Below are positions 1-28,018 of a stretch of DNA of 35,060 nt, piece by piece. Origin of the DNA: Granulosicoccus sp. (GTDB lineage Bacteria > Pseudomonadota > Gammaproteobacteria > Granulosicoccales > Granulosicoccaceae); contig JALZVU010000264.1 of assembly GCA_023301795.1 (NCBI GenBank), positions 1-35,060 of the forward strand. Reading direction: 5' to 3'. Every line of letters starts with the position of its first letter. The stretch's first letter is position 1. Position numbers and translations under genes: made by a program. The notes below the pieces were generated by a model. That model was given only the letters and a program-made list of their open reading frames with translations, was not told where the DNA came from and ran no database searches.

Positions 1-281
1 TGTGGCCTATCAATGCAGATGCTCAGGGCACCCCACAGCAAGTGCGCAATGTCATCGACACTATTCGTGAATTCAGCATCCCTACTGTATTTAGCGAAAG
101 CACGGTGTCGGCCAAACCTGCTGAACAAGTCGCACGTGAAACCGGCAGCCTCTACGGTGGTGTACTCTATGTCGACTCTCTGAGCAACGCTGATGGGCCT
201 GTGCCTACTTACATCGATTTACTGCAAGTGACCATGGACACTATTGTGTCCGGTATCCAGGCAGGTGTTGAGGCTCAATGA
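1..281 (+). CDS. Metal ABC transporter substrate-binding protein, C-terminal end (partial)
   Basis: The reading frame is already open at base 3 and continues to the TGA at 279-281, so this is the 3' end of a longer gene whose start lies before the window. About 92 residues are visible. The stretch reading [14 protein letters not shown], then [14 protein letters not shown], then [11 protein letters not shown] and a [11 protein letters not shown] segment matches the C-terminal lobe of cluster A-I solute-binding proteins (SitA/YfeA/MntC/ZnuA type). In that family a conserved Glu in the FSES region and an Asp in the YVDSLS region are metal ligands. These proteins capture Mn2+, Fe2+ or Zn2+ outside the inner membrane and deliver it to the permease. 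The TGA overlaps the ATG of the ATPase gene, so the two are co-translated. The DGPVPTY wording favours the Mn/Fe group over the Zn group, but metal choice cannot be proven from this fragment. Confidence 0.9.
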
Positions 282-3016: not shown

Positions 3017-3070
3017 CCCTATTCAGTTTGTGGTTGATAACAAGAATTGTTCGTATTACGCTCTGCACCC

Positions 3071-9166: not shown

Positions 9167-9168
9167 CC

Positions 9169-10065: not shown

Positions 10066-10070
10066 ACAAT

Positions 10071-11615: not shown

Positions 11616-11620
11616 GTACA

Positions 11621-12580: not shown

Positions 12581-15500
12581 TGAGCATCCGGATTGCACTT
12601 GATCACACAACCGTATACACCTACGACAAGCCAGTTACTCTACATCCACACATCATCCGCCTAAGACCTGCTCCGCATTGCCGCACCCCGATTTTAAGCT
12701 ACAGCCTAAATATAGAGCCAAAAGATCACTTCCTGAATTGGCAGCAAGATCCGTTCGGTAACTATCTGGCGCGACTTGTTTTCCCTGAGCCGTGTACACA
12801 GCTGAGTGTCAAGGTAGATCTGCTTGCAGAGATGACGGTGATAAACCCGTTTGATTTCTTTGTTGAAGAATCTGCAGAGTATTTTCCGTTTACCTACTCT
12901 AAAACCAACCGTGACGAGCTCGCACCCTATCTTGTCGTGTCAAATGCCTCACCAAAGCTTACGGCGTGGCTTGAAAGGCACAGACCTGCAAAGGGGCGCA
13001 TCATTGATGTGCTGGTGGCGATCAATCAGGCTGTGCATAACGATGTTGAGTATCAACTGCGGATGGAGCCTGGCGTTCAGACAAGCGACCAGACGCTAAC
13101 GCTTGCCAAAGGATCATGCCGCGACAGTGGCTGGCTGCTGGTGGAGATACTCAGGCACTACGGAATGGCAGCTCGATTCGTGTCGGGCTATCTGGTACAA
13201 CTGGTACCTGACATCAAGTCACTCGACGGACCCGTGGGTACCTCAGAAGATTTTACAGACCTGCATGCATGGGCTGAAGTGTATTTGCCAGGTGCAGGCT
13301 GGGTAGGGCTTGATCCTACATCAGGGCTATTTGCCGGTGAAGGGCATATTCCGCTGGCGTGTACGCCGCAACCTGGCAGTGCTGCACCCATTTCGGGCAG
13401 CGCCAGTGCCGGAGCGTCAGACTTCTACTTCCATAACCGTGTTAGCCGGATTGACGAAAGACCCCGAGTCACCCTGCCCTACGACGATCGCACCTGGCGT
13501 GATGTTCTCTCATTAGGCAAATCTGTGGACGAGACGCTTGAGGCTCAAGACGTTCGTCTGACAATGGGTGGCGAGCCGACGTTTGTGTCTGTTGATGACA
13601 TGGAGAGTGCTCAGTGGAATACCGCCGCCTTGGGTGAACATAAACTTGAGCGTGCGTGTGTATTGCTGGAGGAACTCAAGGGATCATTCGCACCTCAGGG
13701 GATTCTTGCCTATGCACAAGGCAAGTGGTATCCGGGTGAGCCCAAGCCACGGTGGGCATTGATTACTCACTGGCGTACAGACGGTCAGCCTATCTGGCAT
13801 CAACCAGAGCTTATTGGTACGCCGGACCAGTACAAGGCCAAGACTGCCGATGCGCATCGACTGATGCTGAGCCTATGCAGCGTTTTAAATATTGAAGAAT
13901 CATTTATCCGTGGCATGTATGAGGATCCACTGCATCATCTGACGCTAGAGGCTTTGCTACCTGATGACAAGGCGCTAAGCGAACTGAAGTTGAAAGACGG
14001 CAGTGAACGTCGCAGATTGGTCGACATGCTAAGCGCAGGCCTGGATGAGCCAGCCGGCTATCTGTTGCCACTGGCACATCAAGCTGACAACTGGGTGAGT
14101 AGTCGTTGGCCTTTGCGACGCGAAGAAGTGTTCCTGATGCCAGGTGACTCACCAGCAGGTTTACGTTTGCCGCTGGATTCGTTACCGAAGAATAGTGACG
14201 TAGACAGTGAGGTGGACAATACGCTGGAGGATAACTTTGATCCCCAGGAGCCATTGTATGTGGCACCAAAACCTGCAGCCACGCTTGAGGAATATAAGGC
14301 AACTGACAGCGCCAAGACGTTGGCAAAGGCAACTGGCGGGAATGGCGAGAAAATAATTCGTACCACCCTGTGTGCTGAAGTCAGAGATAACTGCCTGTAT
14401 GTGTTCATGCCGCCGATGCAAAGCGCAAACGGCTGGATAAAACTCATGGCAGCGCTTGAGCAGGCTTGTATTATTGCAGATGTAAAACCAGTTATTGAAG
14501 GCTACGAGCCCCCACGCGATGCTCGATTGGAATCCTTTCGTATCACACCTGATCCAGGTGTAATCGAAGTCAATATTCACCCCTCAAGCAGTTTTGAAGA
14601 ACTGGCGCATAAAACTGAAACGCTGTACGAGGCAGCTCGAAAAAGTCGTTTGGGTGCCGAAAAGTTCATGGTGGATGGCCGGCATACGGGTACCGGCGGT
14701 GGCAACCATATTACGATGGGCGGCAGCACACCTGCGAACAGTCCGTTTCTACGTCGGCCTGATTTGTTGCGCAGTCTGATTACCTATTGGCAGAATCATC
14801 CGAGCTTGTCGTATTTGTTTTCGGGCATGTTTATCGGGCCTACCAGCCAGGCGCCACGAATTGATGAGGCGCGTTCGGAATCACTGTATGAACTGGAGAT
14901 CGCTTTATCACGACTGCCCAGTGGCGAGAGTAATCAGCCCTGGTTGGTTGATCGCTTATTGCGTAACTTGCTGATTGACCTTACCGGCAATACCCACCGT
15001 GCAGAGATTTGCATCGATAAGCTGTATTCGCCTGACGGCGCTGCAGGACGGCTGGGCATTGTTGAGCTACGGGCGTTTGAAATGCCTCCCCATGCACGCA
15101 TGAGCGTTGTGCAGAATCTGCTCATCCGTTGTCTGATCAGCAGGTTCTGGAAAGAACCTTACAACGGTAAGTTGGTGCGCTGGGGTACAGAGCTGCATGA
15201 CAGGTTCATGCTGCCGCATTTTTTATGGCACGACATCAAAGAAGTTATTGATGATCTCAACGGTCATGGCTATGCATTTGATGAAAAATGGCTGGATGCA
15301 TTCTGGGAATTTCGTTTTCCAGTGCTCGGCACACGGCAGATAGACAACATAACCATGGAGCTGCGTGCAGGTATTGAGCCTTGGCATGTGCTGGGCGAAG
15401 AAGCGTCAGCCAGTGGTATGGCGCGTTACGTAGATTCTTCTCTTGAGCGTCTGGAATTAAAAGTATCCGGGTATACGGACAGTCGCTATAAAATAACCTG

Positions 15501-15945
15501 TAATGGACTGGTGTTACCGTTGCGACCGACAGCGGTGCAAGGTGAATTTGTCGTGGGCGTTCGCTATCGCGCATGGCAACCTACTTTCGCTTTACATCCT
15601 GATATTCCAGTGGACACCCCACTGGTATTCGATGTTATCGACACCTGGTCGAATCGCAGCCTTGGCGGTTGTTCATATCACGTCAGTGATCCCGGTGGCC
15701 GCAGCTATGAAGACGTGCCTGTAAATGCAAACGTGGCTGAAGCACGCCGACTGGCGCGTTTTGACGAGAACAGTCATACGCCCCCGCCGGCCGCTACGGT
15801 TATGACGCCGCAACTATCAGGCGGCAGTCAGTTTCTGCCAACAGAGCCGCATGAGACGGTAATTACATCGGGCACTATCACGTTAAATCCCGAGTACCCG
15901 TGTACTGCCGATTTGCGTCAGTATTCTCCGAAGAATAGTGGCTAG
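12580..15945 (+). CDS. Large transglutaminase / DUF2126 protein
   Basis: A 1121-aa protein in two parts. Residues 1 to about 300 are a transglutaminase N-terminal plus core region with triad Cys180 (KGSCRDSGW), His229 (DLHAWAEVY) and Asp245 (VGLDPTSG). From about residue 324 the DUF2126 region starts with its signature MGGEPTFVS (329-337) and extends close to the C terminus. A GTGGGNHITMGG segment and an IELRAFEMPPHARMS-like stretch (read as VELRAFEMPPHARMS) are conserved parts of it. The function of DUF2126 is unknown; it contains many conserved acidic, histidine and arginine residues and may be an enzyme domain. ATG 12580 is preferred over the TTG directly before it. It is the last gene of the cluster, with 190 bases to the next. 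About 1100 residues is normal for this fused form. Confidence 0.94.
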   Translation: MSIRIALDHTTVYTYDKPVTLHPHIIRLRPAPHCRTPILSYSLNIEPKDHFLNWQQDPFGNYLARLVFPEPCTQLSVKVDLLAEMTVINPFDFFVEESAEYFPFTYSKTNRDELAPYLVVSNASPKLTAWLERHRPAKGRIIDVLVAINQAVHNDVEYQLRMEPGVQTSDQTLTLAKGSCRDSGWLLVEILRHYGMAARFVSGYLVQLVPDIKSLDGPVGTSEDFTDLHAWAEVYLPGAGWVGLDPTSGLFAGEGHIPLACTPQPGSAAPISGSASAGASDFYFHNRVSRIDERPRVTLPYDDRTWRDVLSLGKSVDETLEAQDVRLTMGGEPTFVSVDDMESAQWNTAALGEHKLERACVLLEELKGSFAPQGILAYAQGKWYPGEPKPRWALITHWRTDGQPIWHQPELIGTPDQYKAKTADAHRLMLSLCSVLNIEESFIRGMYEDPLHHLTLEALLPDDKALSELKLKDGSERRRLVDMLSAGLDEPAGYLLPLAHQADNWVSSRWPLRREEVFLMPGDSPAGLRLPLDSLPKNSDVDSEVDNTLEDNFDPQEPLYVAPKPAATLEEYKATDSAKTLAKATGGNGEKIIRTTLCAEVRDNCLYVFMPPMQSANGWIKLMAALEQACIIADVKPVIEGYEPPRDARLESFRITPDPGVIEVNIHPSSSFEELAHKTETLYEAARKSRLGAEKFMVDGRHTGTGGGNHITMGGSTPANSPFLRRPDLLRSLITYWQNHPSLSYLFSGMFIGPTSQAPRIDEARSESLYELEIALSRLPSGESNQPWLVDRLLRNLLIDLTGNTHRAEICIDKLYSPDGAAGRLGIVELRAFEMPPHARMSVVQNLLIRCLISRFWKEPYNGKLVRWGTELHDRFMLPHFLWHDIKEVIDDLNGHGYAFDEKWLDAFWEFRFPVLGTRQIDNITMELRAGIEPWHVLGEEASASGMARYVDSSLERLELKVSGYTDSRYKITCNGLVLPLRPTAVQGEFVVGVRYRAWQPTFALHPDIPVDTPLVFDVIDTWSNRSLGGCSYHVSDPGGRSYEDVPVNANVAEARRLARFDENSHTPPPAATVMTPQLSGGSQFLPTEPHETVITSGTITLNPEYPCTADLRQYSPKNSG

Positions 15946-16135: not shown

Positions 16136-16885
16136 ATGTCGCCCAGCACCATCAAAGTCACCGTCCACCGCGGATCGGACAAAGACACCGAGGCACGGCA
16201 CACCGACACTTTTGATGTACCTGCTTACCAGAGCCAGACAGTTCTAGACGTGGTGTCTTGGGTGCAGCAAAACGCTGATCCAACCCTCAGCTATCGATTT
16301 GCCTGTCGCGTAGGCATGTGTGGCAGTTGCGCCATGATGGTCAACGGCGTGCCGCGCTGGACCTGTCGAACGCATATCTCCAAAGTGCTGGTTGATAATG
16401 CGGTAGAGATTGCACCACTTCGAAACCTGCCCATCATCAAGGATCTGGTGGTGGACATGGACCCGTTCTTTGACAAATGGGTAGCTGCGGAAGGTGTTCA
16501 CCATGGCGCACGAACACGCCACGATCCCATTGAGAACATTGAAGCGACTAGTAATTCTCGTGCACAAGCGGATGCTGGTATTGAGTGCATCAACTGCTCT
16601 GTCTGTTATTCAGCATGCGACACGGTAAGTGGGAATGATGATTATCTAGGGCCTGCGGCCTTGCAGCGTGCGTGGACTCTACTGAACGATGCAAAGGATT
16701 CCGGACGTGATCAGATCCTTGATGCGGTCTCTGGCAAGGGCGGCTGCCACAATTGCCATTCCATGGGATCGTGCACGGTGTATTGCCCTAACGAGCTTGA
16801 TCCGATGTCGGCCATTGCCGGGTTAAAGCGCGAGACAACAAAGCGATTTTTCTCACGACGCAAACGAGGAAACAACGATGCTTGA
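16136..16885 (+). CDS. sdhB: Succinate dehydrogenase/fumarate reductase-like iron-sulfur subunit
   Basis: A 249-aa electron-transfer subunit carrying electrons between the flavoprotein and the membrane quinone site. Cysteine sets are visible in order: [2Fe-2S] at C57, C62, C65 and C77 (CRVGMCGSC then WTC); [4Fe-4S] at C151, C154, C157 and C217; and [3Fe-4S] at C161, C207 and C213. The last block reads CHNCHSMGSCTVYCP, with an additional cysteine (C204) three residues before the usual one. The gene order is B first, then two anchors, then A, unlike the common C-D-A-B order of housekeeping SDH. It overlaps the next gene by 8 bases. It is likely a specialised copy; the physiological direction cannot be read from the sequence. 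Confidence 0.93.
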   Translation: MSPSTIKVTVHRGSDKDTEARHTDTFDVPAYQSQTVLDVVSWVQQNADPTLSYRFACRVGMCGSCAMMVNGVPRWTCRTHISKVLVDNAVEIAPLRNLPIIKDLVVDMDPFFDKWVAAEGVHHGARTRHDPIENIEATSNSRAQADAGIECINCSVCYSACDTVSGNDDYLGPAALQRAWTLLNDAKDSGRDQILDAVSGKGGCHNCHSMGSCTVYCPNELDPMSAIAGLKRETTKRFFSRRKRGNNDA

Positions 16886-17210
16886 TCTGCGACTGTATAT
16901 GGCCCAACGCATAACAGCATTGTTGATGGCACCTTTAGTGGTTGGGCATCTGGCCGTTATGATTTATGCCATTCAGGGCGGCTTGACCACCGCCGAGATT
17001 CTGGGGCGTACGCAAGGCTCGTTTGTCTGGTTTCTCTTTTATGGAACCTTCGTTGCTGCCGTCTCCATACATGGGGCAATTGGCTTACGGACTATTGCCT
17101 ACGAATGGGGTGGCCTGAAAGGTTCGCGGCTAAACGTGTTTATGTGGCTTGTGGGCCTGGGCTTGTTCATCACCGGCGCACGCGCTGTATGGGCGGTAAC
17201 GTTCGCATGA
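16878..17210 (+). CDS. Succinate dehydrogenase-like membrane anchor, first subunit
   Basis: A 110-aa protein with three hydrophobic helices, preceded by a GAGGA ribosome-binding site at 16866-16870. It opens LYMAQRITALLMAPLVVGHL and has a SIHGAIGLRTIAYEW segment. This pattern of Arg/Ser/Thr near helix I and a His in helix I (H24) and helix II (H65) resembles SdhC/SdhD-type cytochrome b anchors, where histidines ligate heme b. Position between the iron-sulfur subunit and a second anchor supports the assignment. It overlaps the next gene by ATGA. Whether it corresponds to SdhC or SdhD is unclear, and heme binding is inferred. Confidence 0.82.
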   Translation: MLDLRLYMAQRITALLMAPLVVGHLAVMIYAIQGGLTTAEILGRTQGSFVWFLFYGTFVAAVSIHGAIGLRTIAYEWGGLKGSRLNVFMWLVGLGLFITGARAVWAVTFA

Positions 17211-17548
17211 GGGCCCCTGCACGCTCGCACCCACTCTGGCTGGCCTACATCCTTCATCGTGTTTCCGGTTTGGCACTCGCGTTGTTTCTACCGCTGCACT
17301 TCTGGATACTGGCCATGGCCATTTCGAACCCAGAACGTCTGGACGGTTTTCTACTACTGACAGAATCAAGCGCTGTCAAAGTTGCCGAATTCGGTCTGGT
17401 ATTCCTACTGGCAATTCACATGTTTGGCGGGCTGCGTTTGATGGCCATGGAGTGGTTGCCTTGGACGCCACCACAAAAGACCCTGGCAGCCGGAGCAACC
17501 GCCATCTCTTTTCTTATTGCCACCCTATTCTTCTTGCGAGCAATCTGA
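17207..17548 (+). CDS. Succinate dehydrogenase-like cytochrome b subunit, second anchor
   Basis: A 113-aa, three-helix membrane protein. YILHRVSGLALALFLPLHF matches the HR-x-SG signature of SdhC cytochrome b556 subunits, and LAIHMFGGLRLMAMEW matches the family's second helix. H31 and H71 are the candidate heme ligands. I place the start at ATG 17207, overlapping the previous stop; the longer frame beginning at 17105 would run deep into the preceding gene. It ends one base before the flavoprotein ATG. Together the two anchors would hold the B-A head to the inner membrane and supply the quinone site. Confidence 0.85.
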   Translation: MRAPARSHPLWLAYILHRVSGLALALFLPLHFWILAMAISNPERLDGFLLLTESSAVKVAEFGLVFLLAIHMFGGLRLMAMEWLPWTPPQKTLAAGATAISFLIATLFFLRAI

Positions 17549-17549
17549 C

Positions 17550-19310
17550 ATGCGACCATCAGATATAGAACGTCACGATACTGATATCCTGATTCTGGGC
17601 AGTGGCGGTGCTGGCCTGTTTGCCGCTCTACATGCACAACAAAGCTCACCCAAAGGCACAAAGATAACGCTTGCCGTAAAGGGACTGATTGGTAAGTGCG
17701 GTTGCACTCGCATGGTACAAGGTGGATATAACGTAGCCCTGGGCGGTGGCGATACGGTTGAGCGGCATTTCATGGACACCATTCAGGGAGGCAAATGGCT
17801 TCCCGATCAGGACATGGCCTGGCGCCTGTGTGAACAGGCGGTAGTGAGAATTCGTGAACTGGAAAACGAGGTAGGCTGCTTTTTCGATCGTAACGCTGAT
17901 GGCAGCCTGCATCAGAAAGCCTTTGCCGGGCAAACCGCTGACAGAACCGTCCATAAAGGCGATTTAACAGGCATAGAAATCATCAACCGTCTGATGGAAA
18001 AGGTTCTGGCCAGTGGTGTAGAAAAGATGCAAGAGCATCGCGCTGTGGGTCTTATTCCAACAAAAGATGGCAGTGCTCTGGCGGGCGTTCTGATGATCGA
18101 TATGCGCACTGGCACGTTTCGCCTGGTGCGCGCAAAAGCTGTTTTGATGGCCACCGGTGGTGGACCCACCATGTACAAATACCATACGCCCAGTGGTGAC
18201 AAAACCATGGATGGCCTGGCCATGGCCTTGCGTGCAGGGCTTGCATTACGAGATATGGAGATGGTGCAGTTTCATCCCACGGGGTTATTAGCAGGCGAAC
18301 ACACGCGCATGACAGGCACAGTGCTGGAAGAAGGATTGCGTGGCGCAGGCGGTCAGCTGATCAATCATTCCGGCCAGCGATTCATGTACGACTACGATGG
18401 GCTTGGTGAGCGTGCCACCCGAGATGTGGTAAGCCGTGGCATCTATTCAGAAATGCGCAAAAACAATAATCCGGAACAGGAAGGCGTATTTATTTCCATG
18501 TCTCATTTGGGCCCGGAATGGGTACGGCAAAAATTCAAGGGCATGGTTAAACGCTGTGCTGATAGTGGATTCGACTTGGCAGCGGGCAAGGTAGAGGTGG
18601 TACCTACCGCCCATTACTTCATGGGTGGCGTCGTGGTTGATGTTGATACACGAACGGCACTTGAAGGGCTGTACGTGGCTGGCGAAGATGCGGGGGGTGC
18701 ACATGGCTCAAATCGTCTGGGTGGCAATGGCGTGGCCAATTCCACCGTCTACGGCGGCATTGCAGGAGATACCATGGCAGCGGATATACGCACAATGGGT
18801 AGCTTGAGAGAACCCGACGAGGCGGTGCTTGCGCAGGAACTAGCGCGTGCCATACACCCTTTGGGTAAAAAACCGGCATTGATACTGCCGCTGCGCAAAC
18901 AGTTACAAGAGCTGATGTGGGATGAGGTTGGTGTGATGCGGACGCAAATTGGCATGCAACGCGGCCTGGACGGCATCAGCGATGTCTCGGATGCCTTGAT
19001 GGACATGGGCGTAGCCGACGACAATCTGGCTTATAACCTTACATGGCATGACTGGTTAAACTTGCGATCCTTATGTGATATCTCCGAAGTCATCACCATG
19101 GCGGGTATTGCCCGTGAGAATTCACGGGGCGCACACTATCGTATCGATTATCCAGATGCAGGACGTATGGAAGACAGCGAATTTACCGTGGCAAAACTGG
19201 ACGGCGACACAGTCAAGGTCACTCGCGAGCCAGTTCAATTTACGATTGTGCGTCCGGGCGAAACTATCTTGCCTGCAGACGCTCCTGACACACTGGTGGC
19301 AGCCGTATGA
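17550..19310 (+). CDS. sdhA: Succinate dehydrogenase/fumarate reductase-like flavoprotein
   Basis: A 586-aa FAD enzyme that would oxidise succinate (or a related acid) or run the reverse reaction. It has an N-terminal dinucleotide fold (LGSGGAGLFAALHA), QFHPTGL, catalytic Arg264 in EEGLRGAGG, His355 in TAHYFMGG and Arg389 in GSNRLGGNG, so the dicarboxylate site looks complete. The flavin-attachment region, normally SHTVAAQGG, reads GCTRMVQGG: Cys52 replaces the histidine that carries covalent FAD, so FAD is probably non-covalent, as in L-aspartate oxidase. ATG 17550 directly follows the anchor stop and the TGA overlaps the fumarase ATG. NadB is an alternative family, but the adjacent B subunit and anchors argue for a membrane complex. 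Confidence 0.88.
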   Translation: MRPSDIERHDTDILILGSGGAGLFAALHAQQSSPKGTKITLAVKGLIGKCGCTRMVQGGYNVALGGGDTVERHFMDTIQGGKWLPDQDMAWRLCEQAVVRIRELENEVGCFFDRNADGSLHQKAFAGQTADRTVHKGDLTGIEIINRLMEKVLASGVEKMQEHRAVGLIPTKDGSALAGVLMIDMRTGTFRLVRAKAVLMATGGGPTMYKYHTPSGDKTMDGLAMALRAGLALRDMEMVQFHPTGLLAGEHTRMTGTVLEEGLRGAGGQLINHSGQRFMYDYDGLGERATRDVVSRGIYSEMRKNNNPEQEGVFISMSHLGPEWVRQKFKGMVKRCADSGFDLAAGKVEVVPTAHYFMGGVVVDVDTRTALEGLYVAGEDAGGAHGSNRLGGNGVANSTVYGGIAGDTMAADIRTMGSLREPDEAVLAQELARAIHPLGKKPALILPLRKQLQELMWDEVGVMRTQIGMQRGLDGISDVSDALMDMGVADDNLAYNLTWHDWLNLRSLCDISEVITMAGIARENSRGAHYRIDYPDAGRMEDSEFTVAKLDGDTVKVTREPVQFTIVRPGETILPADAPDTLVAAV

Positions 19311-20287
19311 TTTCCATAGAGTGCATTCAACAAACAGCAGAATCCTTAATGGACAAAGCTGCCATCGAGATACCCACTGACTATCATCACGCACTGAAAA
19401 AGGCTGCGCGTACTGAAGACGGAGAGCTTTCTACTTTTGTACTAAAATCCATGCTGGACAACTACGAGGTGGCCAAGGAAGATCGTTGCGCCATGTGTGG
19501 TGATACGGGCGTACCGCGTTGGTTTGTTAAGTTCGGAAACGAGGCCAGCGTGGAAGGAGGCATGGTTGCGTTAGAAGCCGCCCTTCGTCGAGCCACTGCC
19601 AATGCCACTCACAACGTACCGCTTCGACCCAATCGCGTGCATCCCTTGTGGCGTACTGATCACAACAACAACGTGGGCATTGGTGCTCCAGAGATTGAAT
19701 ACGGGTTTGAACCTGAAGGTGACTGGATTGATCTGATTACGGTACACAAGGGTGGTCTGTTCGGTACGGATTACCGCATGCTGTTTCCCAGCGATGGCAT
19801 TCAAGGTATCAAGCGCTTCTATCTGGATAGCCTGATGGCCTTTGGCAAGCGTGGCCTGGCCTGTCAACCGGCCATTATTGGAATTGGACTTGGTGGCTCT
19901 AAAGATATCTGCATGAGCTTGGGCAAGCGGGCAAGCACGCTTAGAGTGGTGGGCAGTCGTAATCCCGATCCTGAAATTGCCACGTTGGAAGATGAATTCA
20001 AGGAACTGGGAAATTCTATAGGCATGGGCGCCATGGGGTTTGTGGGAAAGCACATGGTCATAGATTGCAATATAGAAGTAGGCTATTGCCACACTGGTGG
20101 CATGCCGATGTCGGTACACGCATTTTGTTTATCTTCTCGGCGTGCTGTTGCACGTTTGTTTCCAGACGGGCGTGTGGAATACCGTACCGACCCCGACTGG
20201 TTTACGCCTTACCAGCGCAGAGAGACTATTGAATGGGAACCCAATAATCCAAACACTACAACAACGACAACCGAGGCTTTAACGTGA
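19307..20287 (+). CDS. Class I fumarate hydratase, alpha subunit (TtdA-like)
   Basis: A 326-aa subunit of an oxygen-sensitive [4Fe-4S] hydro-lyase that converts fumarate to malate, or in TtdAB tartrate to oxaloacetate. Candidate cluster cysteines are C64 (CAMCGDTGVP), C186 (ACQPAIIGIGLGG) and C274 (HAFCLSSRRA). The arrangement corresponds to the N-terminal part of FumA, split as in archaeal and anaerobic-type enzymes. The start ATG overlaps the flavoprotein stop (ATGA) and its own stop overlaps the beta subunit's GTG, so three enzymes are translationally coupled. Position after an Sdh-like complex favours fumarase over tartrate dehydratase, but the two cannot be separated by eye. Confidence 0.9.
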   Translation: MISIECIQQTAESLMDKAAIEIPTDYHHALKKAARTEDGELSTFVLKSMLDNYEVAKEDRCAMCGDTGVPRWFVKFGNEASVEGGMVALEAALRRATANATHNVPLRPNRVHPLWRTDHNNNVGIGAPEIEYGFEPEGDWIDLITVHKGGLFGTDYRMLFPSDGIQGIKRFYLDSLMAFGKRGLACQPAIIGIGLGGSKDICMSLGKRASTLRVVGSRNPDPEIATLEDEFKELGNSIGMGAMGFVGKHMVIDCNIEVGYCHTGGMPMSVHAFCLSSRRAVARLFPDGRVEYRTDPDWFTPYQRRETIEWEPNNPNTTTTTTEALT

Positions 20288-20952
20288 GCGGGCTACGCGA
20301 AGTGCGCCTCTCAACAACTCCAACTGCTGAGGCTGTTGCAGATTTGCGTCTGGGTGATATTGTCTATCTGGACGGATTAATGTACACCGCTCGAGAAGGT
20401 GTTTATAAAAGGGCACTGGAAGATAAGGCCAATATCCCGATGGACTTGCCACACGATTCGGCAGCTAATTTTCATTGTTCGCCAGCTGCGCGTATCAATG
20501 CCGATGGTTCATTCGATATGGGCGCCGTTACTGCCACCGCCTCGTTCCGTTTTGCCAAATGGTTGCCAGAGTGGATGGAGAAAACCGGAGCGCGATTGAT
20601 TATTGGCAAAGGTGGCATGAGCTCCAAAGACTACAAGGGCTATTTCGTCCCTAACGGCGCCGTCTACCTGTCCACAGTAGGTTACGGCACTGGCGCCCTG
20701 CTCGGCCGCGGTATTGAACATGTGGAGGCGGTGCACTGGAACGATGAGCTGGGATTAGCGCAAGCCATGTGGGTCATTAAATGTAACAAGATGGGGCCGT
20801 TTATTGTGGCCTCTGACCTGAACGGAGATTGCCTGTTTGAAAGAGAAAATGCCAAGATCGCCAAGAATGTGGCCAAGGTGTACGAAGGAACCACCCCTGC
20901 TGTATTGAAACGCTATGGTGAGACCAATGACCCGACAGATGAAGTAATCTAA
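20284..20952 (+). CDS. Class I fumarate hydratase, beta subunit (TtdB-like)
   Basis: A 222-aa partner of the alpha subunit, equivalent to the C-terminal domain of FumA/FumB. The IIGKGGMSS loop and YFVPNGAVYLSTVGYG segment are typical of the swivelling domain that completes the active site. It starts with GTG 20284, overlapping the alpha stop (GTGA). It is the last gene of the operon and converges on the TauE/SafE gene with only 15 bases between the stops, where I see no hairpin. Confidence 0.9.
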   Translation: MSGLREVRLSTTPTAEAVADLRLGDIVYLDGLMYTAREGVYKRALEDKANIPMDLPHDSAANFHCSPAARINADGSFDMGAVTATASFRFAKWLPEWMEKTGARLIIGKGGMSSKDYKGYFVPNGAVYLSTVGYGTGALLGRGIEHVEAVHWNDELGLAQAMWVIKCNKMGPFIVASDLNGDCLFERENAKIAKNVAKVYEGTTPAVLKRYGETNDPTDEVI

Positions 20953-20967
20953 TAATTACATAGCGCC

Positions 20968-21711
20968 TTACACAACAATCTGCACAAGAATAGCCAAACC
21001 CATAAGCAGCGTTAGTCCTATCAATAATCGCCGAAACAGGTTGTCGCTGATACGCTTGAAAACAAACAGCCCTATCTGCGAGGCCACAAGCCCCACAGGA
21101 ACAACAATGAGCAACGCGCTGACGGCTGTGGAATCATAAGCACCTCGAAAAAAAAGCAGCGCCACCGTTGTGCTTAAGATCGCCACATTGAATGGCTGTA
21201 ATACCGCGCGAGTTGCCGCTTTTGGCCAAGGCCGTAATGACAGCCACATCGCTGGGATAGCACCGGAAACCGAGGCTGCACCACCGAGCACGCCGCCGAC
21301 AAAACCCACCAGCGCATCAATGAAGGGTGTTCGTACATTGAAGGAAGGCAGAACTGAGCGAAAGCTAAAATAGCTACCATAAACAATCAGCAATACCGCA
21401 ATACCCAGACGCAAAGTCTGGGCATCAATCAGTTGCAGCAGTGTGATACCCAATGGCACACCCACCAGCCCTGGAAGAACAAAACGCACCATTCTCAGCG
21501 GCTTCGCTTTCATTTGCGCTCTGACCACCCACAGTCCTTGCAAGCCCGCCAATACCGACATCAACGCAACGATAGCGACCGAGGTTACTGGTGGCAAAAC
21601 CAGCAAGTAGAAGCCCAGCGCAAACAGCGCGGTGCCGGTGCCTGCAAGTCCGTTGACAAAACCACCCGCAGCAGCCCCCATGACCAGAAAAATAAGGGTC
21701 TCGGCACTCAA
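20968..21711 (-). CDS. TauE/SafE family membrane permease
   Basis: A 247-aa polytopic membrane protein with about eight hydrophobic stretches. The GAAAGGFVNGLAGTGTALF opening and the central FVGGVLGGAASVSGAIPAMW repeat of the same motif are the family signature. TauE/SafE proteins are thought to export sulfite, sulfoacetate or other organic anions. The start ATG overlaps the stop of the LysR gene, so regulator and permease form one unit transcribed away from tctCBA. This suggests it handles an anion linked to the TctABC substrate. The actual substrate is unknown. Confidence 0.9.
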   Translation of the reverse strand: MSAETLIFLVMGAAAGGFVNGLAGTGTALFALGFYLLVLPPVTSVAIVALMSVLAGLQGLWVVRAQMKAKPLRMVRFVLPGLVGVPLGITLLQLIDAQTLRLGIAVLLIVYGSYFSFRSVLPSFNVRTPFIDALVGFVGGVLGGAASVSGAIPAMWLSLRPWPKAATRAVLQPFNVAILSTTVALLFFRGAYDSTAVSALLIVVPVGLVASQIGLFVFKRISDNLFRRLLIGLTLLMGLAILVQIVV

Positions 21712-22649
21712 GGCTTATCGATTCTCGTTTTATTGCTTCTCTTTTTTCTAGTGTTTTTATTCGCAGCACTTGCAATCGCCTCATCGATGACACTGCGAAG
21801 TGCTGCAAACATTTCCTCCACAGCCTGCATCTTTACCGAATCGGTACGGTAGGCTAATCCCAGAGATCGACTGGGCGCATCAGCCCCCAGGCTAAGTCTC
21901 TTAAGTGTGACTGAATTGTTCGGCTGCACAGTACGTTTCGGAACGATAGAGACGCCAAGGTTTGCATGGACCATACTTTCAATTGCTTCCAGACTGCCAA
22001 GCTCCATGGTTTCAAAGACGCGGATCTTCTTCAAACTACACCAGTTGTCAATTAAAGTACCCACCACTGCATTCCGATTAAATCGGATGAACGGTAATGT
22101 CTTCAACAACTTCACGGGATCATCGCCCGCGGTATCCACAGAAGCAATCAACTCCAGCGGTTCAACAACAAGCTCCCTGAAGGCAATACTCGAAGGCATA
22201 AGGTGCGGTTTGCTTAACACCGCCATATCCAGTCTGCCACGCTCAATATCAGCCAGCAACTCACCGGTCAGTCCAGGGCTGATATGCACGCGCAGCTCGG
22301 GGAAGCGCGATCTCAATATAGCCATCGTTAGTGGCGTCAGACCAGTCAGCGTCGTTGGCAATGCACCAAAACTCACCTCCCCGTTCAACCCCTCATCCGC
22401 AGTCACCGACGCGACAAGATTGTCGTAGTCAGCCACCAGCTTGCGGGCCTTGTGAACAACCTCGCGTGCCACCGGTGTGAGCTCGGGGGTACGTGTACTG
22501 CGATCAAACAGCGCAACCCCAAGATTAGATTCAAGCGTCTGCATTTGCTGACTGACGGCAGCATGCGTGACGTTTACCTGTTCAGCAGCAGCACTGAATG
22601 TTTGCGAATCAGCCACTGCCACCAGGGTACGCAACAGGCGGATGCTCAT
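21708..22649 (-). CDS. LysR-type transcriptional regulator
   Basis: A 313-aa regulator with an N-terminal winged helix-turn-helix (residues about 1-60, TFSAAAEQVNVTHAAVSQQM) and a C-terminal co-inducer-binding domain. It ends in a basic tail rich in Lys, Arg and Asn. It is divergent from tctCBA across 132 bases, the classic arrangement in which a LysR protein controls its neighbour in response to the transported substrate and represses itself. It probably also controls the overlapping TauE/SafE gene. Control of the sdh-like operon is possible but not shown. Confidence 0.93.
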   Translation of the reverse strand: MSIRLLRTLVAVADSQTFSAAAEQVNVTHAAVSQQMQTLESNLGVALFDRSTRTPELTPVAREVVHKARKLVADYDNLVASVTADEGLNGEVSFGALPTTLTGLTPLTMAILRSRFPELRVHISPGLTGELLADIERGRLDMAVLSKPHLMPSSIAFRELVVEPLELIASVDTAGDDPVKLLKTLPFIRFNRNAVVGTLIDNWCSLKKIRVFETMELGSLEAIESMVHANLGVSIVPKRTVQPNNSVTLKRLSLGADAPSRSLGLAYRTDSVKMQAVEEMFAALRSVIDEAIASAANKNTRKKRSNKTRIDKP

Positions 22650-22776: not shown

Positions 22777-22781
22777 AATTG

Positions 22782-23759
22782 ATGAATTTTAGACAAATAG
22801 CCACGGCGCTCAGTGTCAGTGCTGCACTGACCATTGTCCCCGCGCTTGCAGAGTATCCGGAACGCGCCATCAACATGGTTATCCCGTTTGGCGCTGGCGG
22901 GGCAACTGATATTTCCGCACGTGCTATTGCCGAACCTCTGGGCAACGCGGTAGGCAAACCTCTCATCATGGTCAACCTGACGGGCGCCGGTGGTGCTACG
23001 GGATCTGTAAACGTAAAAAATGCTAAAGGCGATGGCCAGACTATGTTGTTTGCGCGAGTTGGTTCACACTCGGTAAGTCCTGCCATGAAAGAGACACTCC
23101 CCTACACACTCGACGATTTCCGCTTTGTTACCGTCTATGAAATCAACCCTGTGGCCTGTGCAGTTACGCCAGCATCAGGTATCAATTCAATGGAAGATCT
23201 TGTTGCCAAAGTCGCTGAAGGTGGTGTGAGTTACAGCTCCTCTGGTGTCGGATCACTGTTGCACATAGCCGGCGCTATGGTGCTGAAGGAATTTGGTGTT
23301 GAAAATCCATTAGAGGCAGCAACTCACATTCCTCAAAAAGGTGGTGGTGCAGCAGCAACGGCTGTGCTCAATGGAACAGCCACCTTTTTATGCACTAACT
23401 CCTCTGCACTGGCAAGTTTTGTTGCTAACGGTCAGCTCAAGCCGCTAATGGTTACCACTGAACAGCCAATCACGGGCTTTGACGCACCCACTGCTAACGA
23501 ACTGGGCAAACCTGCACTTAACCAGCTAGTGGGCTGGACAGGTATTGCAGGACCTGATGATTTGCCTGACGATGTTGCCACCAAGTGGGAAGCCTGGATG
23601 GCCACTGCAACTCAGGACGAAAAATTCATCAAGACCATGACATCCGCAGGATCAATCATCACACTGATGAGTGAGGAAGAAGCAAACACATTCATCCGCG
23701 GCCAGTTCGAGGTTTTTCGTGCACTGGTTGATGACTTGGGTATGCGCATAGAAGGCTAG
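22782..23759 (+). CDS. tctC: Tripartite tricarboxylate transporter substrate-binding protein
   Basis: A 325-aa periplasmic receptor of the TTT family. A signal peptide of about 22 residues (MNFRQIATALSVSAALTIVP then ALA) precedes EYPERAINMVIPFGAGGATD, the family hallmark near the mature N terminus; there is no lipobox. TctC proteins bind citrate, other tri- and dicarboxylates and sometimes aromatic acids, and pass them to the TctAB membrane complex. The beta-strand to helix segment PFGAGGATDISARA is where the family holds the carboxylate of its ligand. First gene of tctCBA, 3 bases before tctB. The substrate cannot be read from the sequence. Confidence 0.93.
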   Translation: MNFRQIATALSVSAALTIVPALAEYPERAINMVIPFGAGGATDISARAIAEPLGNAVGKPLIMVNLTGAGGATGSVNVKNAKGDGQTMLFARVGSHSVSPAMKETLPYTLDDFRFVTVYEINPVACAVTPASGINSMEDLVAKVAEGGVSYSSSGVGSLLHIAGAMVLKEFGVENPLEAATHIPQKGGGAAATAVLNGTATFLCTNSSALASFVANGQLKPLMVTTEQPITGFDAPTANELGKPALNQLVGWTGIAGPDDLPDDVATKWEAWMATATQDEKFIKTMTSAGSIITLMSEEEANTFIRGQFEVFRALVDDLGMRIEG

Positions 23760-23762
23760 ACA

Positions 23763-24251
23763 ATGACACCGCGATCCGTCCAGTTGCACTTGGGTGCAAC
23801 CGCCTGCCTGATATCGCTCGTACTGATATTTGTGGGTATACCGCACGCTGTAAGTTCACCATCCAATGTGTCGAACATCGTGCTATCGCCTACCTTCTGG
23901 CCCTATGTACTGTCAGGGTTTACCGGCTTGACCGGGGTAGGACTGGTATTGGCCGGATTGCGTGTTAATCCTTCTGAATTTTTTGAAGACGAACCTGAGA
24001 ATGATTCCCTCGGTTTGCTGCGTCTTGCAGCGCTTGCAATCATCATGGTGGTTACCATGTTTGCGCTACCCATACTTGGCATGGTCTGGACCACCATGCT
24101 GGTCTTTGCGTTCACAGCCTTCCTGTTTCGAACACGCCACCCACGCACAGCCATCATCTGCGCCATTGTGATTCCGCTGGCCCTGTATGTGTTCTTCGCA
24201 CATGTAGCGGGCGTAGGAATCCCTCAAGGAAATTTTTTGAGACTGCCATGA
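23763..24251 (+). CDS. tctB: Tripartite tricarboxylate transporter small membrane subunit
   Basis: A 162-aa membrane protein with four hydrophobic stretches (near residues 10-30, 45-65, 85-115 and 130-155) and a polar acidic loop after the second (EFFEDEPENDS). TctB proteins are poorly conserved but always of this size and topology, between TctC and TctA. Its stop overlaps the tctA ATG. It assists the large permease. Confidence 0.9.
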   Translation: MTPRSVQLHLGATACLISLVLIFVGIPHAVSSPSNVSNIVLSPTFWPYVLSGFTGLTGVGLVLAGLRVNPSEFFEDEPENDSLGLLRLAALAIIMVVTMFALPILGMVWTTMLVFAFTAFLFRTRHPRTAIICAIVIPLALYVFFAHVAGVGIPQGNFLRLP

Positions 24252-25738
24252 GCTTGATGGACAACTTGTTGGCCGGGCTTAGTCTGGTCGCCTCTTTTGA
24301 AGTGTTTTTTGCGCTTTTCGTCGGTATTTGTATCGGTGTGGTGGGCGGTGCCATTCCAGGTCTATCGGCCACCATGGCTGTAGCGTTAACACTGCCGTTC
24401 ACCTTCTCGCTGCAACCCATTACAGGCATATTACTGCTTCTGGGAGTCTACAAAGGCGGTATCTTTGGCGGCTGTATTCCCGCTATTCTCATCAAGACCC
24501 CTGGCACCCCTGCCTCGTCAGCTACCATTCTGGACGGCCATCCCATGGCTGAAAAAGGTGAATCCGGACGCGCACTGGGCATGGCGCTCTGGGCTTCGTG
24601 CACCGCTGACATTGTATCCAACCTGGCATTAATTCTTTTTGCCGGCTGGTTGGCTTCATTCGCCTTGAAGTTTGGTCCACCTGAATTTTTTGCACTTATT
24701 CTTTTCTCACTAACCATTATCGCTGGCGTGTCTGGTGAAAGTCTGCTGCGAGGTGCGTTAGCAGCCATATTGGGACTGCTGTTAGCAACAGTGGGACTTG
24801 ATCTTGTTTACGGTACCAATCGTTTTACCTTTGGTGATCCGAACATGATGGGCGGGCTGAATTTCATAGCGGTACTCATCGGTCTGTTTGCCATCCCAGA
24901 GATCATAGCCATGGCCTGGAATCCTGTGGCACATCTGGGTAAACCCCGCGCATTGGGACAATCCAAAGTTACGTTCGCCGACTACAAGCGTTGTTTTAAA
25001 TCGATCATCCGTGGCAGTGTTATCGGTGTTTTCCTTGGCTCGATTCCAGGCATTGGAGCTGCGCCTTCCGCATTTTTAAGCTATTCAGAAGCCCGGAGAA
25101 AATCCCCTAACAAGGAGAACTTTGGCAAGGGCGAGATAGAAGGCGTCGCAGCATCCGAGGCCGGTAACAACGGGGTAGCAGGTGCAACGCTTATCCCGCT
25201 TCTAGCGCTTGGTGTACCGGGTGACGTCATCACCGCCATTATTATCGGGGCTTTCATGGTTCATGGATTGCAACCCGGACCCATGATGTTCATCCTGAAC
25301 GTAGACATCATCTACGGATTATTTATCGGCCTTATCGTCAGCTCGGTATTCTTGTTTATCGTTGGCAGTGTCGCCATCAAGGGCTTTCGCTTTGTAGCTG
25401 ATGTACCAAAACGCATACTGATGCCAGCGGTGCTCGTGTTATGTATTTACGGAGTGTTTGCTGTCAACAACAATATCTTTGATGTTGGCGTCATGTTTGC
25501 CATGGGCTGGGTGGGCTATCTAATGATGCGTTACAGAATTCCTGCAGCTCCTTTTCTGATCGCCTTCATTCTAGGCCCGCTTCTGGAAGACAACTTCCGT
25601 CAGGCCATGCTTATGTCGGGTAGCGATCCGATGATTCTCATTCGAGGACCTATCACTTGGTTTTTCTGGGTGGTGACAATTATCACCGTAGTGGCTATTA
25701 CACGCAGTGTTGTGAGCAAAGACAAGCTAGGCGTTTGA
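24248..25738 (+). CDS. tctA: Tripartite tricarboxylate transporter large permease
   Basis: A 496-aa inner-membrane protein with about eleven or twelve helices. The conserved repeats are GGAIPGLSATMAVALTLPFTF near the N terminus and GSIPGIGAAPSAFLSYSEAR near residue 265, followed by ASEAGNNGVAGATLIPLLAL and LGVPGD. It carries the ion-coupled translocation path. It ends the tctCBA operon and converges on the aminotransferase gene. Confidence 0.95.
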   Translation: MSLMDNLLAGLSLVASFEVFFALFVGICIGVVGGAIPGLSATMAVALTLPFTFSLQPITGILLLLGVYKGGIFGGCIPAILIKTPGTPASSATILDGHPMAEKGESGRALGMALWASCTADIVSNLALILFAGWLASFALKFGPPEFFALILFSLTIIAGVSGESLLRGALAAILGLLLATVGLDLVYGTNRFTFGDPNMMGGLNFIAVLIGLFAIPEIIAMAWNPVAHLGKPRALGQSKVTFADYKRCFKSIIRGSVIGVFLGSIPGIGAAPSAFLSYSEARRKSPNKENFGKGEIEGVAASEAGNNGVAGATLIPLLALGVPGDVITAIIIGAFMVHGLQPGPMMFILNVDIIYGLFIGLIVSSVFLFIVGSVAIKGFRFVADVPKRILMPAVLVLCIYGVFAVNNNIFDVGVMFAMGWVGYLMMRYRIPAAPFLIAFILGPLLEDNFRQAMLMSGSDPMILIRGPITWFFWVVTIITVVAITRSVVSKDKLGV

Positions 25739-25794: not shown

Positions 25795-27114
25795 TCAGAA
25801 TACAGCCTTAAAAGCGACAGAGAGCTTGTCGACAATTTCGTCAATGTGAGCATCTTCAAGGATGAACGGCGGTGCCAGAAGCACATGATCGCCATTGACA
25901 CCATCAATCGTTCCACCCATCGGATAACAGATCAGACCTGCTTCAAAGGCTGCCTTCTTGAGTTTTTTATGGGTAGCCTGGGTTGAGCAAAACGGCGCTT
26001 TGGTGTCACGATCCTGAACAATCTCCAGAGCCCGAAACAAACCTCGCCCGCGAATATCACCGATGTAGGGATGCTGACCAAAACTGCTTTCCAGTGCCGC
26101 CTGTAGCTTCTCGCCCATGGCCATACTGCGTGCAACAAGGTCGTGCTCCTCAAGCTTGTTAACCACGGCAAGTGAAGCGGCACAAGCTGTTGGGTGTCCA
26201 ACATACGTATGCCCGTGCTGAAAAAAGCCAGAACCCTCTTCCAGAGTCTTATATATTTTTGCAGTACACAAGGTGGCACCAATAGGTTGATAGCCTGCGC
26301 CCAACCCTTTTGCAATAGTGATGATATCCGGCACAATGTCATCTTGCTCACACGCGAACATAGTGCCCGTCCTGCCCATACCACACATGACCTCGTCCAG
26401 GATAAGCAGGATATCGTACTGGTCGCAGATCTCTCGGACTCGCTTGAAATACCCCTCAACCGGTGGCACCGCACCTGCCGTTGCCCCCACCACAGGCTCG
26501 GCAACAAAACCGATGACGTTTTCTGCACCTAGCTTCAGGATTTGTTCTTCCAGCTCATTGGCTACCCTGAGTCCATAGTCGGCCTCACTTTCATCGTCAC
26601 GACAACCCCGATAGGCATAGCACGGAGAAATATGGCTCGTCTGAATCATCAGCGGTGAGAAAGGTGCACGCCGCCACTCGTTACCACCTGTCGCTAATGC
26701 TGCCAGTGTATTGCCGTGATAGCTTTGCTTGCGCGCGATGAAATACTTGCGCTCCATTTGCCCCTGCTCCCAATAATATTGGCGCGCAAGTTTCAAGGCA
26801 GCCTCTACCGCCTCTGAACCACCAGAAACAAAATAGGCGCGATCAATTCCAGTAGGCGCCAGATCCACCAGTTTGTCGGCCAGATCTTCAGCAGATTGAG
26901 ATGTCAGAAAGCTGGTATGGGCAAACGCAACGTTGTCCAGTTGTGCCTTGATAGCGTTGGTGACATCGATATCGCCGTGACCAAGGCATGACACCGCTGC
27001 ACCACCCGACCCGTCAAGGTATTGCTTTCCGTCGGTATCGTACAGATACACTCCGCGCCCGGTGGCCACAGTGGGCAAATTGGATTTAGTGTGCCTAGGG
27101 AAAACATGCGACAT
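25795..27114 (-). CDS. Class III (omega-type) aminotransferase
   Basis: A 439-aa PLP enzyme of the class III family, which moves amino groups, often from omega-amino acids or amines, to pyruvate or 2-oxoglutarate. Visible landmarks are SGGSEAVEAALKLA (PLP phosphate site), SYHGNT, the LDEVMCGMGRTG segment (D240) and the PLP-binding Lys269 in TIAKGLGAGYQPIGA. I place the start at ATG 27114 (MSHVFPRH); a longer frame from 27198 adds 28 polar residues with no family match. The ribosome-binding site is weak. A 129-base gap separates it from the oxygenase gene; a TATACT box (complement of 27208-27213) there might give it its own promoter. The substrate is unknown; database labels for such proteins (aspartate, beta-alanine, taurine, adenosylmethionine) cannot be separated by eye. 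Confidence 0.92.
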   Translation of the reverse strand: MSHVFPRHTKSNLPTVATGRGVYLYDTDGKQYLDGSGGAAVSCLGHGDIDVTNAIKAQLDNVAFAHTSFLTSQSAEDLADKLVDLAPTGIDRAYFVSGGSEAVEAALKLARQYYWEQGQMERKYFIARKQSYHGNTLAALATGGNEWRRAPFSPLMIQTSHISPCYAYRGCRDDESEADYGLRVANELEEQILKLGAENVIGFVAEPVVGATAGAVPPVEGYFKRVREICDQYDILLILDEVMCGMGRTGTMFACEQDDIVPDIITIAKGLGAGYQPIGATLCTAKIYKTLEEGSGFFQHGHTYVGHPTACAASLAVVNKLEEHDLVARSMAMGEKLQAALESSFGQHPYIGDIRGRGLFRALEIVQDRDTKAPFCSTQATHKKLKKAAFEAGLICYPMGGTIDGVNGDHVLLAPPFILEDAHIDEIVDKLSVAFKAVF

Positions 27115-27243
27115 TTTAATAACCCTGCTCTGATCGTCATCAGATGCTGCTTGCTGTGATGAAAGCTGACTGGGAATAAGAGTGCATTTTCCCGGCACGC
27201 ACTGCAGAGTATACCTGTTACATCGTATTCGCCATCGCCGAAT

Positions 27244-28011: not shown

Positions 28012-28018
28012 GGCATTC

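Follow-up and report, generated by a model that had tools for sequence, protein, structure and literature searches.

A complex II-like operon coupled to a class I hydratase in Granulosicoccus, and its probable role in 3-sulfopropanoate breakdown

In this study, we analyzed a six-gene operon in a stretch of 35,060 nucleotides from Granulosicoccus sp. (GenBank assembly GCA_023301795.1, contig JALZVU010000264.1). This stretch, hereafter the window, is an entire contig (C264) of a 5.78-Mb genome in 313 contigs. The operon encodes an iron-sulfur (FeS) subunit, two membrane anchors and a flavoprotein related to those of succinate dehydrogenase (SDH), followed by the alpha and beta subunits of a class I fumarase-like hydratase. 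It is not tricarboxylic acid (TCA) cycle machinery, and it very likely belongs to sulfonate catabolism. Judging from gene content, gene order, neighboring genes, residue changes and the presence of a second SDH, on which our views of its substrate, direction, products and regulation are all based, the operon probably encodes a complex II-like 3-sulfopropanoate dehydrogenase and a class I 3-sulfoacrylate hydratase, with 3-sulfolactate as the product.

In the proposed route, the sulfonate would be imported by TctABC in this organism and by a tripartite ATP-independent periplasmic (TRAP) transporter, an SsuA-type ATP-binding cassette (ABC) transporter or a dicarboxylate symporter in some relatives. 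The flavoprotein would remove two hydrogens from C2-C3 of 3-sulfopropanoate (an analog of succinate) to give 3-sulfoacrylate (an analog of fumarate), and the electrons would pass through the FeS subunit and the anchors to quinone. The two-subunit Fe-S hydratase would add water to 3-sulfoacrylate to form 3-sulfolactate (the malate analog), which could lose its sulfonate through SuyAB or, after conversion to sulfopyruvate and sulfoacetaldehyde, through Xsc. Sulfite would leave through TauE, or be oxidized and then exported. In some relatives, an alcohol dehydrogenase and a succinate-semialdehyde-type dehydrogenase (SSADH) may feed the route by converting 3-hydroxypropanesulfonate to 3-sulfopropanal and then 3-sulfopropanoate, and an aminotransferase perhaps feeds homotaurine into it. 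Since SlcC, ComC and SuyAB act on sulfolactate, such a sequence of steps would explain why a dehydrogenase and a hydratase are placed ahead of sulfolactate.

The operon differs from housekeeping succinate dehydrogenase and fumarase

An earlier note, made from the letters of this DNA, had described the cluster as an SDH-like complex coupled to a two-subunit fumarase, distinct from the housekeeping TCA layout and with two consecutive steps (dehydrogenation and hydration) fixed together. This description was borne out. The order FeS subunit, anchor, anchor, flavoprotein, alpha and beta, with overlaps of 8, 4, 4 and 4 bases and one 1-base gap, is exact by the coordinates of the open reading frames (ORFs). 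Of 99 related loci, 84 contained all six genes by the similarity rule of the neighborhood census given below, and every one of these 84 had them in the same order on one strand, so the arrangement is not due to chance. Elsewhere in the genome, a separate SdhA gene is followed by SdhB (NF004616, over cut-off) on contig C49, with the contig edge upstream and an 89-amino acid (aa) frame, SdhE-like by eye, after SdhB; a 512-aa single-chain class I fumarase lies on contig C166. Of the second sdh and the fumC that the note had proposed to look for, the former is thus present. fumC was not found in the genome, whose three Lyase_1-family genes are ArgH, PurB and PcaB. On gene content, the operon is therefore not the only SDH and fumarase of its genome, as the note's view presupposed. 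A separate housekeeping SdhA was also found in all 40 operon-bearing genomes searched, which were picked for spread (34 from related contig loci, these being the best 80 from a scan of 379 related stretches, and six of eight gammaproteobacterial relatives).

The flavoprotein fell below the cut-offs of the SdhA subfamilies (416.6 of 567.3 bits for TIGR01812 and 331.5 of 727.35 bits for TIGR01816), and its top NCBIfam score, for the thiol:fumarate reductase TfrA (NF004900), was also under cut-off (464 of 718 bits). At the position of the His that binds FAD covalently, Cys was found in 96 of 96 operon flavoproteins, as against His in 39 of 39 housekeeping SdhA proteins (one more gapped in each set); the Cys also occurs in the more distant Rhodococcus and haloarchaeal proteins. 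The Thr of the TEG motif, which we take to be a ligand of the substrate carboxylate in FrdA/SdhA, is replaced by Glu (EEG) in 97 of 97 operon flavoproteins, compared with Thr in 38 and Ser in 2 of the 40 housekeeping controls, and approximately six additional residues follow HPTG in the alignment rows shown. The catalytic His, Arg, His and Arg are retained in all 97. The FeS subunit has 12 cysteines, of which 11 were invariant in 90 of 90 relatives and the twelfth was kept in 89. Together with the two Sdh_cyt anchors, these features suggest a membrane-bound complex II that is intact but whose substrate pocket has been remodeled. An 8-alpha-S-cysteinyl FAD might be formed at the Cys that stands in place of the FAD-linking His, a linkage of which we know no example in complex II.

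Both hydratase subunits have their Pfam domains over cut-off (Fumerase, PF05681, 224 bits against 25; Fumerase_C, PF05683, 73 bits against 22.2). The beta subunit missed the TIGR00723 cut-off (116.8 of 145.15 bits; the other class I fumarase of the genome scored 151). The canonical beta loops (RD after TG/TA, and TTSxRM) are missing in the beta subunits of the window's type, in which T(A/G)REG(V/I)Y and TAT(A/S)SFRF were each found in 93 of 93 sequences. For the first loop, these were TAREGVY in 88, TGREGVY in 4 and TAREGIY in 1 (TGRDAAH in the genome's other fumarase), and for the second, TATASFRF in 92 and TATSSFRF in 1 (GPTTSTRM in the other fumarase). RDA and TTSxRM loops are present in the housekeeping fumarase and in the hydratases of loci L099, L108 and L178. 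One flavoprotein clade is thus paired with two class I hydratases, the window type with altered loops and a second one (S-type; RDA, TTTSxRM), the latter standing with SuyAB at five of the six loci seen (L099, L103, L104, L108 and L174; not L178).

Genomic neighborhood of the operon

To characterize the neighbors of the operon, 99 loci (the window, 80 contig loci, 8 genome stretches and 10 plasmid loci) were searched by tblastn with representative neighbors as references (35% identity, 60% coverage). This rule misses annotated TauE genes in L107 and L109 and the UxaA and TauE genes in L112, so the counts are low estimates. Longest-ORF calling chose antisense ORFs in GC-rich loci; genes in relatives were called by codon-position composition and tblastn, and five neighbor clusters of the longest-ORF calling (13, 15, 19, 23 and 25) were left out, taken as antisense frames.

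A sulfonate marker (TauE, SuyB, ComC, SlcC, SoxC, SorMo, sulfate exporter or sulfolactaldehyde reductase) was found at 67 of the 99 loci (57 of 80 contig loci, 3 of 8 genome stretches, 6 of 10 plasmids and the window), compared with none of the 40 control loci around housekeeping SDH genes, taken from the 40 genomes searched above. When TauE was not counted, markers remained at 27 loci (19 contigs, 3 genome stretches, 5 plasmids; not the window). The most frequent neighbors were LysR regulators (67 of 99), TauE-like proteins (58), TctA (36) and TctC (33), followed by zinc alcohol dehydrogenases (22), thiamine pyrophosphate (TPP) enzymes (20), sulfite-dehydrogenase-like molybdoproteins (18) and SSADH (7); SlcC, ComC and sulfate exporters were each seen at 5 loci and SuyB at 4. 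Sulfite- or sulfate-handling genes are thus linked to the operon, and in the window itself a TauE/SafE gene adjoins it. No known carbon-sulfur (C-S) cleaving enzyme was recognized among the window proteins with family matches; seven larger proteins there had no NCBIfam match.

Several individual loci are more telling. At L099, L103, L104, L108 and L174, the flavoprotein is clustered with SuyAB-, SlcC- and ComC-type genes. L103 contains SuyA- and SuyB-type genes (94 and 393 aa; the latter in the GD_AH family), the FeS subunit, anchors, an ABC transporter ATPase, the hydratase and the flavoprotein, together with 2-hydroxyacid dehydrogenase-type and Ldh_2-type genes; L104 and L099 resemble it, and L099 additionally has TauE and an SsuA-family binding protein (below cut-off). 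The ComC-type (Ldh_2) proteins of L099 and L103 had L-sulfolactate dehydrogenase (NF040650) as their best NCBIfam model, below cut-off, and the SuyB-type proteins gave weak galactarate dehydratase matches only. The names SuyB, SlcC and ComC therefore rest on family, size, gene order and the published module, as given in PMC12421959, PMC9594981 and PMC11131964.

Among plasmids, SlcC/ComC-type genes stand beside the operon in two Paracoccus records (L106 and L175). Plasmids of Methylobacterium radiotolerans and M. oryzae carry UxaA-UxaA, TauE, Ldh and TPP enzyme genes by the operon; those of Paracoccus versutus and P. ferrooxidans a YeiH-type sulfate exporter, TauE, Ldh, a hydroxyacid dehydrogenase and ABC and Tct genes; that of Methylobacterium nodulans soxC, a sulfate exporter and TauE; and that of Pseudomonas MPC6 a sulfite oxidase, a sulfate exporter and TauE. 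The plasmids of strains NT-25 and NT-26 have a sulfate exporter, TauE, a TRAP transporter and a sulfolactaldehyde-3-reductase-type (3-hydroxyacid-type dehydrogenase) gene, with SSADH in the longer NT-26 stretch (L177), and Sulfitobacter THAF37 has TauE by the operon. No marker gene was close by on the Sulfitobacter S190 plasmid or on that of Paracoccus seriniphilus, where a YeiH-family gene lies about 7 kb away, and tblastn detected none on the unannotated plasmids L111, L173 and L178. On two haloarchaeal plasmids (L112 and L176), the flavoprotein and FeS genes stand beside UxaA-UxaA (SuyAB-like) and TauE; these stretches contain an argH-annotated gene (L112:6371-7873 and L176:6218-7720) and no class I hydratase. 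Possibly, the argH-annotated product is a displaced hydratase for sulfoacrylate. With 323 bits, the L112 protein is over the argH cut-off, and it also scores 257 bits, below cut-off, with the model of the coenzyme M enzyme XcbC, which the ArgH of the window's own genome also matches (213 bits).

Two further neighbors deserve mention. At 35 of the 99 loci, a nitroreductase-family gene with no obvious role in the pathway occurs near the operon, in most cases immediately upstream and in opposite orientation (for example, L066:529-1317). The TPP enzyme (for example, L023:13702-15429 and L108:10738-12363) belongs to the acetolactate synthase/sulfoacetaldehyde acetyltransferase superfamily and is possibly a sulfopyruvate decarboxylase.

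Carbon-sulfur cleavage genes in operon-bearing genomes

At the genome level, a known C-S cleaving enzyme, Xsc, was found over cut-off in the window's own genome. Eight of the 9 Gammaproteobacteria that carry the operon had an Xsc over cut-off, versus 13 of 360 others (p 2e-10, uncorrected for phylogeny), and the ninth has SuyB. All 41 operon genomes tested had Xsc or SuyB at 69% identity or more (Xsc in 39, a SuyB orthologue in the other 2). As Xsc is also used for taurine and further sulfonates, its presence marks sulfonate users in general. Among 38 genomes with the window-type hydratase, a SuyB orthologue was found in 4, a match to the sulfopyruvate decarboxylase model TIGR03846 (E 1e-20) in 26 and neither in 8, the window's genome included. 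Roseovarius nubinhibens reportedly degrades sulfolactate via Xsc and cysteate sulfo-lyase (CuyA), as the title of a paper by Denger et al. from 2009 has it.

Evaluation of alternative explanations

Several observations speak against a route through 3-sulfopropanoate and 3-sulfolactate. In the window's own genome, we found no SuyB orthologue (the best match, a 537-aa frame, had 31% identity) and no TIGR03846 match at E 1e-20, and the best ComC-like protein had 40% identity; the route after sulfolactate is thus incomplete there by known genes (Xsc present; CuyA not searched for). SuyB occurred at none of 94 loci with the window-type hydratase and SlcC/ComC at one, and 32 of the 99 loci lacked any marker, including the near relatives L017, L020, L021 and L069. 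The Rhodococcus locus L178 combines flavoprotein and hydratase with no marker found, and two sampled genomes of the same genus lack the operon (flavoprotein, E 1e-120), though Xsc is present. TauE/SafE and TctABC are broad families, and TauE/SafE alone is no proof of sulfite transport. Some of the census references derive from the loci under study, contig ends truncate several operon loci, and the loci are related to one another. Finally, loss of the covalent-FAD His is expected from work on Escherichia coli Frd to hinder succinate-like oxidation.

The earlier note had named succinate, citrate, tartrate, tricarballylate and itaconate as acids to be tried and, with TctABC and malic enzyme, had suggested a possible self-contained route from imported acid to pyruvate. 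The linkage to TctABC does recur (TctA-like gene in 35 of 98 other loci), but malic enzyme was near the operon in none of the 98, and the di- and tricarboxylate substrates found no support; because of the recurrent neighbors, a C3 sulfonate is favored over them. A C4/C5 dicarboxylate pathway, either from methylsuccinate via mesaconate to citramalate or for tartrate, itaconate or tricarballylate, to which TauE and the sulfite genes would be unrelated, is an unlikely alternative that nevertheless has several points in its favor: TctABC is linked to the operon, a third or so of the loci (the 32 above) lack a marker, the neighbors on the Sulfitobacter S190 plasmid are an aconitase-X-type gene and an FAD-binding oxidoreductase instead, and class I fumarases are promiscuous, accepting for example mesaconate (PMC4682846). 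However, SuyAB, SlcC, ComC, SoxC/SorA-like, sulfate exporter and SsuA-like genes recur across lineages and are clustered together at L099, L103 and L104, and none of 20 annotated neighbor proteins was a citramalate- or tartrate-specific enzyme. An accessory or conditional SDH/fumarase of the TCA cycle, which family-level homology and the complete complex II architecture would allow and which the authors of the Paracoccus wurundjeri study suggest for a probably identical cluster (PMC12421959), is highly improbable in view of the housekeeping SDH in 40 of 40 genomes, the missed SdhA cut-offs, the replacement of the covalent-FAD His and pocket Thr in aligned relatives and the sulfonate neighbors.

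Two other alternatives stay within sulfonate metabolism. The hydratase of the window type might put the hydroxyl on the sulfonate-bearing carbon of 3-sulfoacrylate, and the resulting 3-hydroxy-3-sulfopropanoate, which is the bisulfite adduct of malonate semialdehyde, would fall apart into sulfite and malonate semialdehyde; SuyAB or Xsc would then not be needed. The differences between the two hydratase types in loops and SuyAB linkage (SuyAB with the S-type at five of six loci, SuyB with the window type at none of 94) leave room for such a direct loss of sulfite. The window type also adjoins sulfite- or sulfate-handling genes in several plasmids, in Pseudomonas MPC6 the gene immediately after beta encodes a CoA-acylating (methyl)malonate-semialdehyde dehydrogenase, two Cupriavidus plasmids have a similar gene upstream in opposite orientation, and 8 of 38 window-type genomes had neither SuyB nor TIGR03846. 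On the other hand, the remaining 30 had one or the other, SlcC- and ComC-type genes adjoin window-type operons in the two Paracoccus plasmids, the Rhodococcus S-type hydratase without SuyB nearby weakens the link between type and SuyAB, and the aldehyde dehydrogenases could equally use 3-sulfopropanal. In addition, a thesis cited by Chen et al. 2024 (PMC11489063) names sulfolactate, and we consider direct desulfonation quite unlikely. The reverse operation of the complex, in which a respiratory or redox sink would be provided by reducing sulfolactate-derived sulfoacrylate to 3-sulfopropanoate, appears the most doubtful of all. The top NCBIfam score is indeed for a fumarate reductase, TfrA (below cut-off), and with Cys in place of His the FAD may be bound non-covalently, a state associated with reductases in this superfamily. 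However, the SSADH and alcohol dehydrogenase genes that some relatives have by the operon mark 3-sulfopropanoate as an entry substrate, and sulfite export and oxidation genes imply desulfonation. Oxidation of 3-sulfopropanoate followed by hydration to 3-sulfolactate is therefore still the reading that we prefer.

Occurrence and spread of the operon

In the best 80 of the 379 related loci, the hydratase alpha subunit had 86-92% identity in seven loci titled Granulosicoccaceae, Granulosicoccus or Chromatiales, and most of the others were roseobacters (85-89%); six had Roseovarius titles. The flavoprotein was found at E 1e-120 or better in 9 of 369 Gammaproteobacteria from seven families (62-77% identity; the window itself aside). 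Operon relatives also occurred in 18 plasmid records, 16 of which were examined (H12 and H15 were left out). This patchy spread, together with the plasmid records, suggests that the operon moves horizontally. In the arsenite oxidizers NT-25 and NT-26 (L110 and L177), it stands immediately next to genes for conjugal transfer, on a plasmid that is typed as conjugative, which likewise suggests horizontal spread.

Relation to known pathways

Compared with SdhCDAB and FrdABCD, the operon shares the conserved-cysteine FeS subunit, two short anchors, FAD_binding_2 and Succ_DH_flav_C domains and the catalytic His, Arg, His and Arg, but it differs in the order B-anchor-anchor-A, Cys for the FAD His, EEG for TEG, the insertion after HPTG and the coupled hydratase genes. 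The hydratase shares PF05681, PF05683 and membership of the Fe-S hydro-lyase family with two-subunit class I fumarase and L(+)-tartrate dehydratase TtdAB (solved relative 7xky, annotated as fumarate hydratase), whereas its beta subunit is under the TIGR00723 cut-off and both loops are altered relative to the genome's other fumarase.

Genes of the type found in the SlcC-ComC-SuyAB sulfolactate module of Paracoccus and Chromohalobacter (PMC12421959, PMC9594981) are clustered with this flavoprotein in some relatives. The module begins at sulfolactate and is not adjacent in the window; the operon would feed it from the more reduced 3-sulfopropanoate. The HpfGDXYZ pathway of Enterococcus gilvus and the homotaurine route of Cupriavidus necator H16 have the same metabolite (PMC11489063), which they make and which the operon would consume. 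3-Sulfopropanoate is formed by bacteria from dihydroxypropanesulfonate and from homotaurine, and its degradation is described as unreported, unclear or needing study (PMC11489063, PMC12890257, PMC9594981). Chen et al. 2024 state that degradation of 3-hydroxypropanesulfonate (3-HPS) and 3-sulfopropanoate (3-SP) had not been reported, and cite a thesis in which Roseovarius nubinhibens uses homotaurine via 3-sulfopropanoate, sulfoacrylate and sulfolactate (PMC11489063). Aminopropane sulfonate (homotaurine or an isomer) is a head group of roseobacter lipids (PMC8319176). Our literature search, which most subscription papers and the thesis lay beyond, found no gene assignment for 3-sulfopropanoate breakdown. 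In Paracoccus wurundjeri Merri, nine proteins of cluster 3, to which the authors assign fumarate and tartrate metabolism and a TauE homologue, were raised on sulfofucose, and a link to the Krebs cycle is suggested (PMC12421959). Judging from its description, this cluster is probably the present operon; sulfofucose breakdown is not expected to pass via 3-sulfopropanoate.

If the proposed function is true, the operon would provide the genes for 3-sulfopropanoate breakdown in roseobacters, Paracoccus, Methylobacterium, Granulosicoccaceae and others. It would thereby supply candidates for one of the steps by which sulfonates are broken down in sea and soil. A segment of the Krebs cycle would have been copied for a sulfonate, and some genes annotated as succinate dehydrogenase or fumarate hydratase, as seen in the plasmid relatives, would be something else. 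If direct desulfonation were true instead, the hydratase of the window type would represent a novel sort of desulfonating enzyme, and two Krebs-like steps catalyzed by homologues of complex II and fumarase would suffice to remove the sulfur, with no need for SuyAB, Xsc, or glycyl-radical or oxygenase chemistry.

Features of the window

The genes of the operon and of its surroundings are listed in Table 1. For the flavoprotein, the ORF list took an in-frame TTG at 17517, upstream of the ATG, as the start. Beyond the operon, a tripartite tricarboxylate transporter is encoded, with the TctC receptor and TctA permease both matched by their Pfam families. The class III aminotransferase could produce 3-sulfopropanal from homotaurine.

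Table 1 Predicted genes of the operon and adjoining part of the window
Feature	Position	Strand	Basis
FeS subunit, SdhB/FrdB-like	16136..16885	+	Family matches, conserved cysteines
Membrane anchor 1, Sdh_cyt family	16878..17210	+	PF01127 31.7 bits (cut-off 25.8); 8-base overlap with FeS gene
Membrane anchor 2, Sdh_cyt family, SdhC-like	17207..17548	+	TIGR02970 54.9 bits (cut-off 52.3), PF01127; 4-base overlap with anchor 1
Flavoprotein, proposed 3-sulfopropanoate dehydrogenase	17550..19310	+	ATG start, 1-base gap after anchor 2; FAD_binding_2/Succ_DH_flav_C
Hydratase alpha, class I fumarase/TtdA family, proposed 3-sulfoacrylate hydratase	19307..20287	+	Fumerase domain; 4-base overlap with flavoprotein gene
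Hydratase beta, class I fumarase C-terminal/TtdB family	20284..20952	+	GTG start; Fumerase_C; 4-base overlap with alpha; loops TAREGVY, TATASFRF
TauE/SafE-family exporter, proposed sulfite (or sulfonate) exporter	20968..21711	-	PF01925; like gene in 58/99 loci, window included
LysR-type regulator, putative regulator of the cluster	21708..22649	-	Family match; like gene in 67/99 loci
TctC-family binding protein, proposed sulfonate uptake	22779..23759	+	PF03401 104 bits; 33/99 loci
TctB-like small permease subunit	23763..24251	+	Position and similarity, no NCBIfam match; 31/98 other loci
TctA-family large permease subunit	24248..25738	+	PF01970 481 bits; 35/98 other loci
Class III aminotransferase (PRK07483 family), tentative member	25795..27198	-	Close to operon in 4/98 other loci

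Malic enzyme, a PaaE-like reductase, a Na+/H+ antiporter and the block 6608-15945 were considered as parts of the system and rejected, each being near the operon in 0 or 1 of the 98 other loci. At 27244-29095, the PaaE-like reductase (TIGR02160, 435 bits, cut-off 420.8) stands beside a protein weakly like PaaA/PaaC; it was by the operon in none of the 98. The block 6608-15945 consists of five successive genes without an NCBIfam match, presumably resembling an ATP-grasp/alpha-E/transglutaminase-like cluster. At 278-5167, genes for a manganese/iron-type ABC transporter (ATPase and two permeases) precede one for a 706-aa protein, both halves of which resemble permeases of the Phn/Mod/Cys type.

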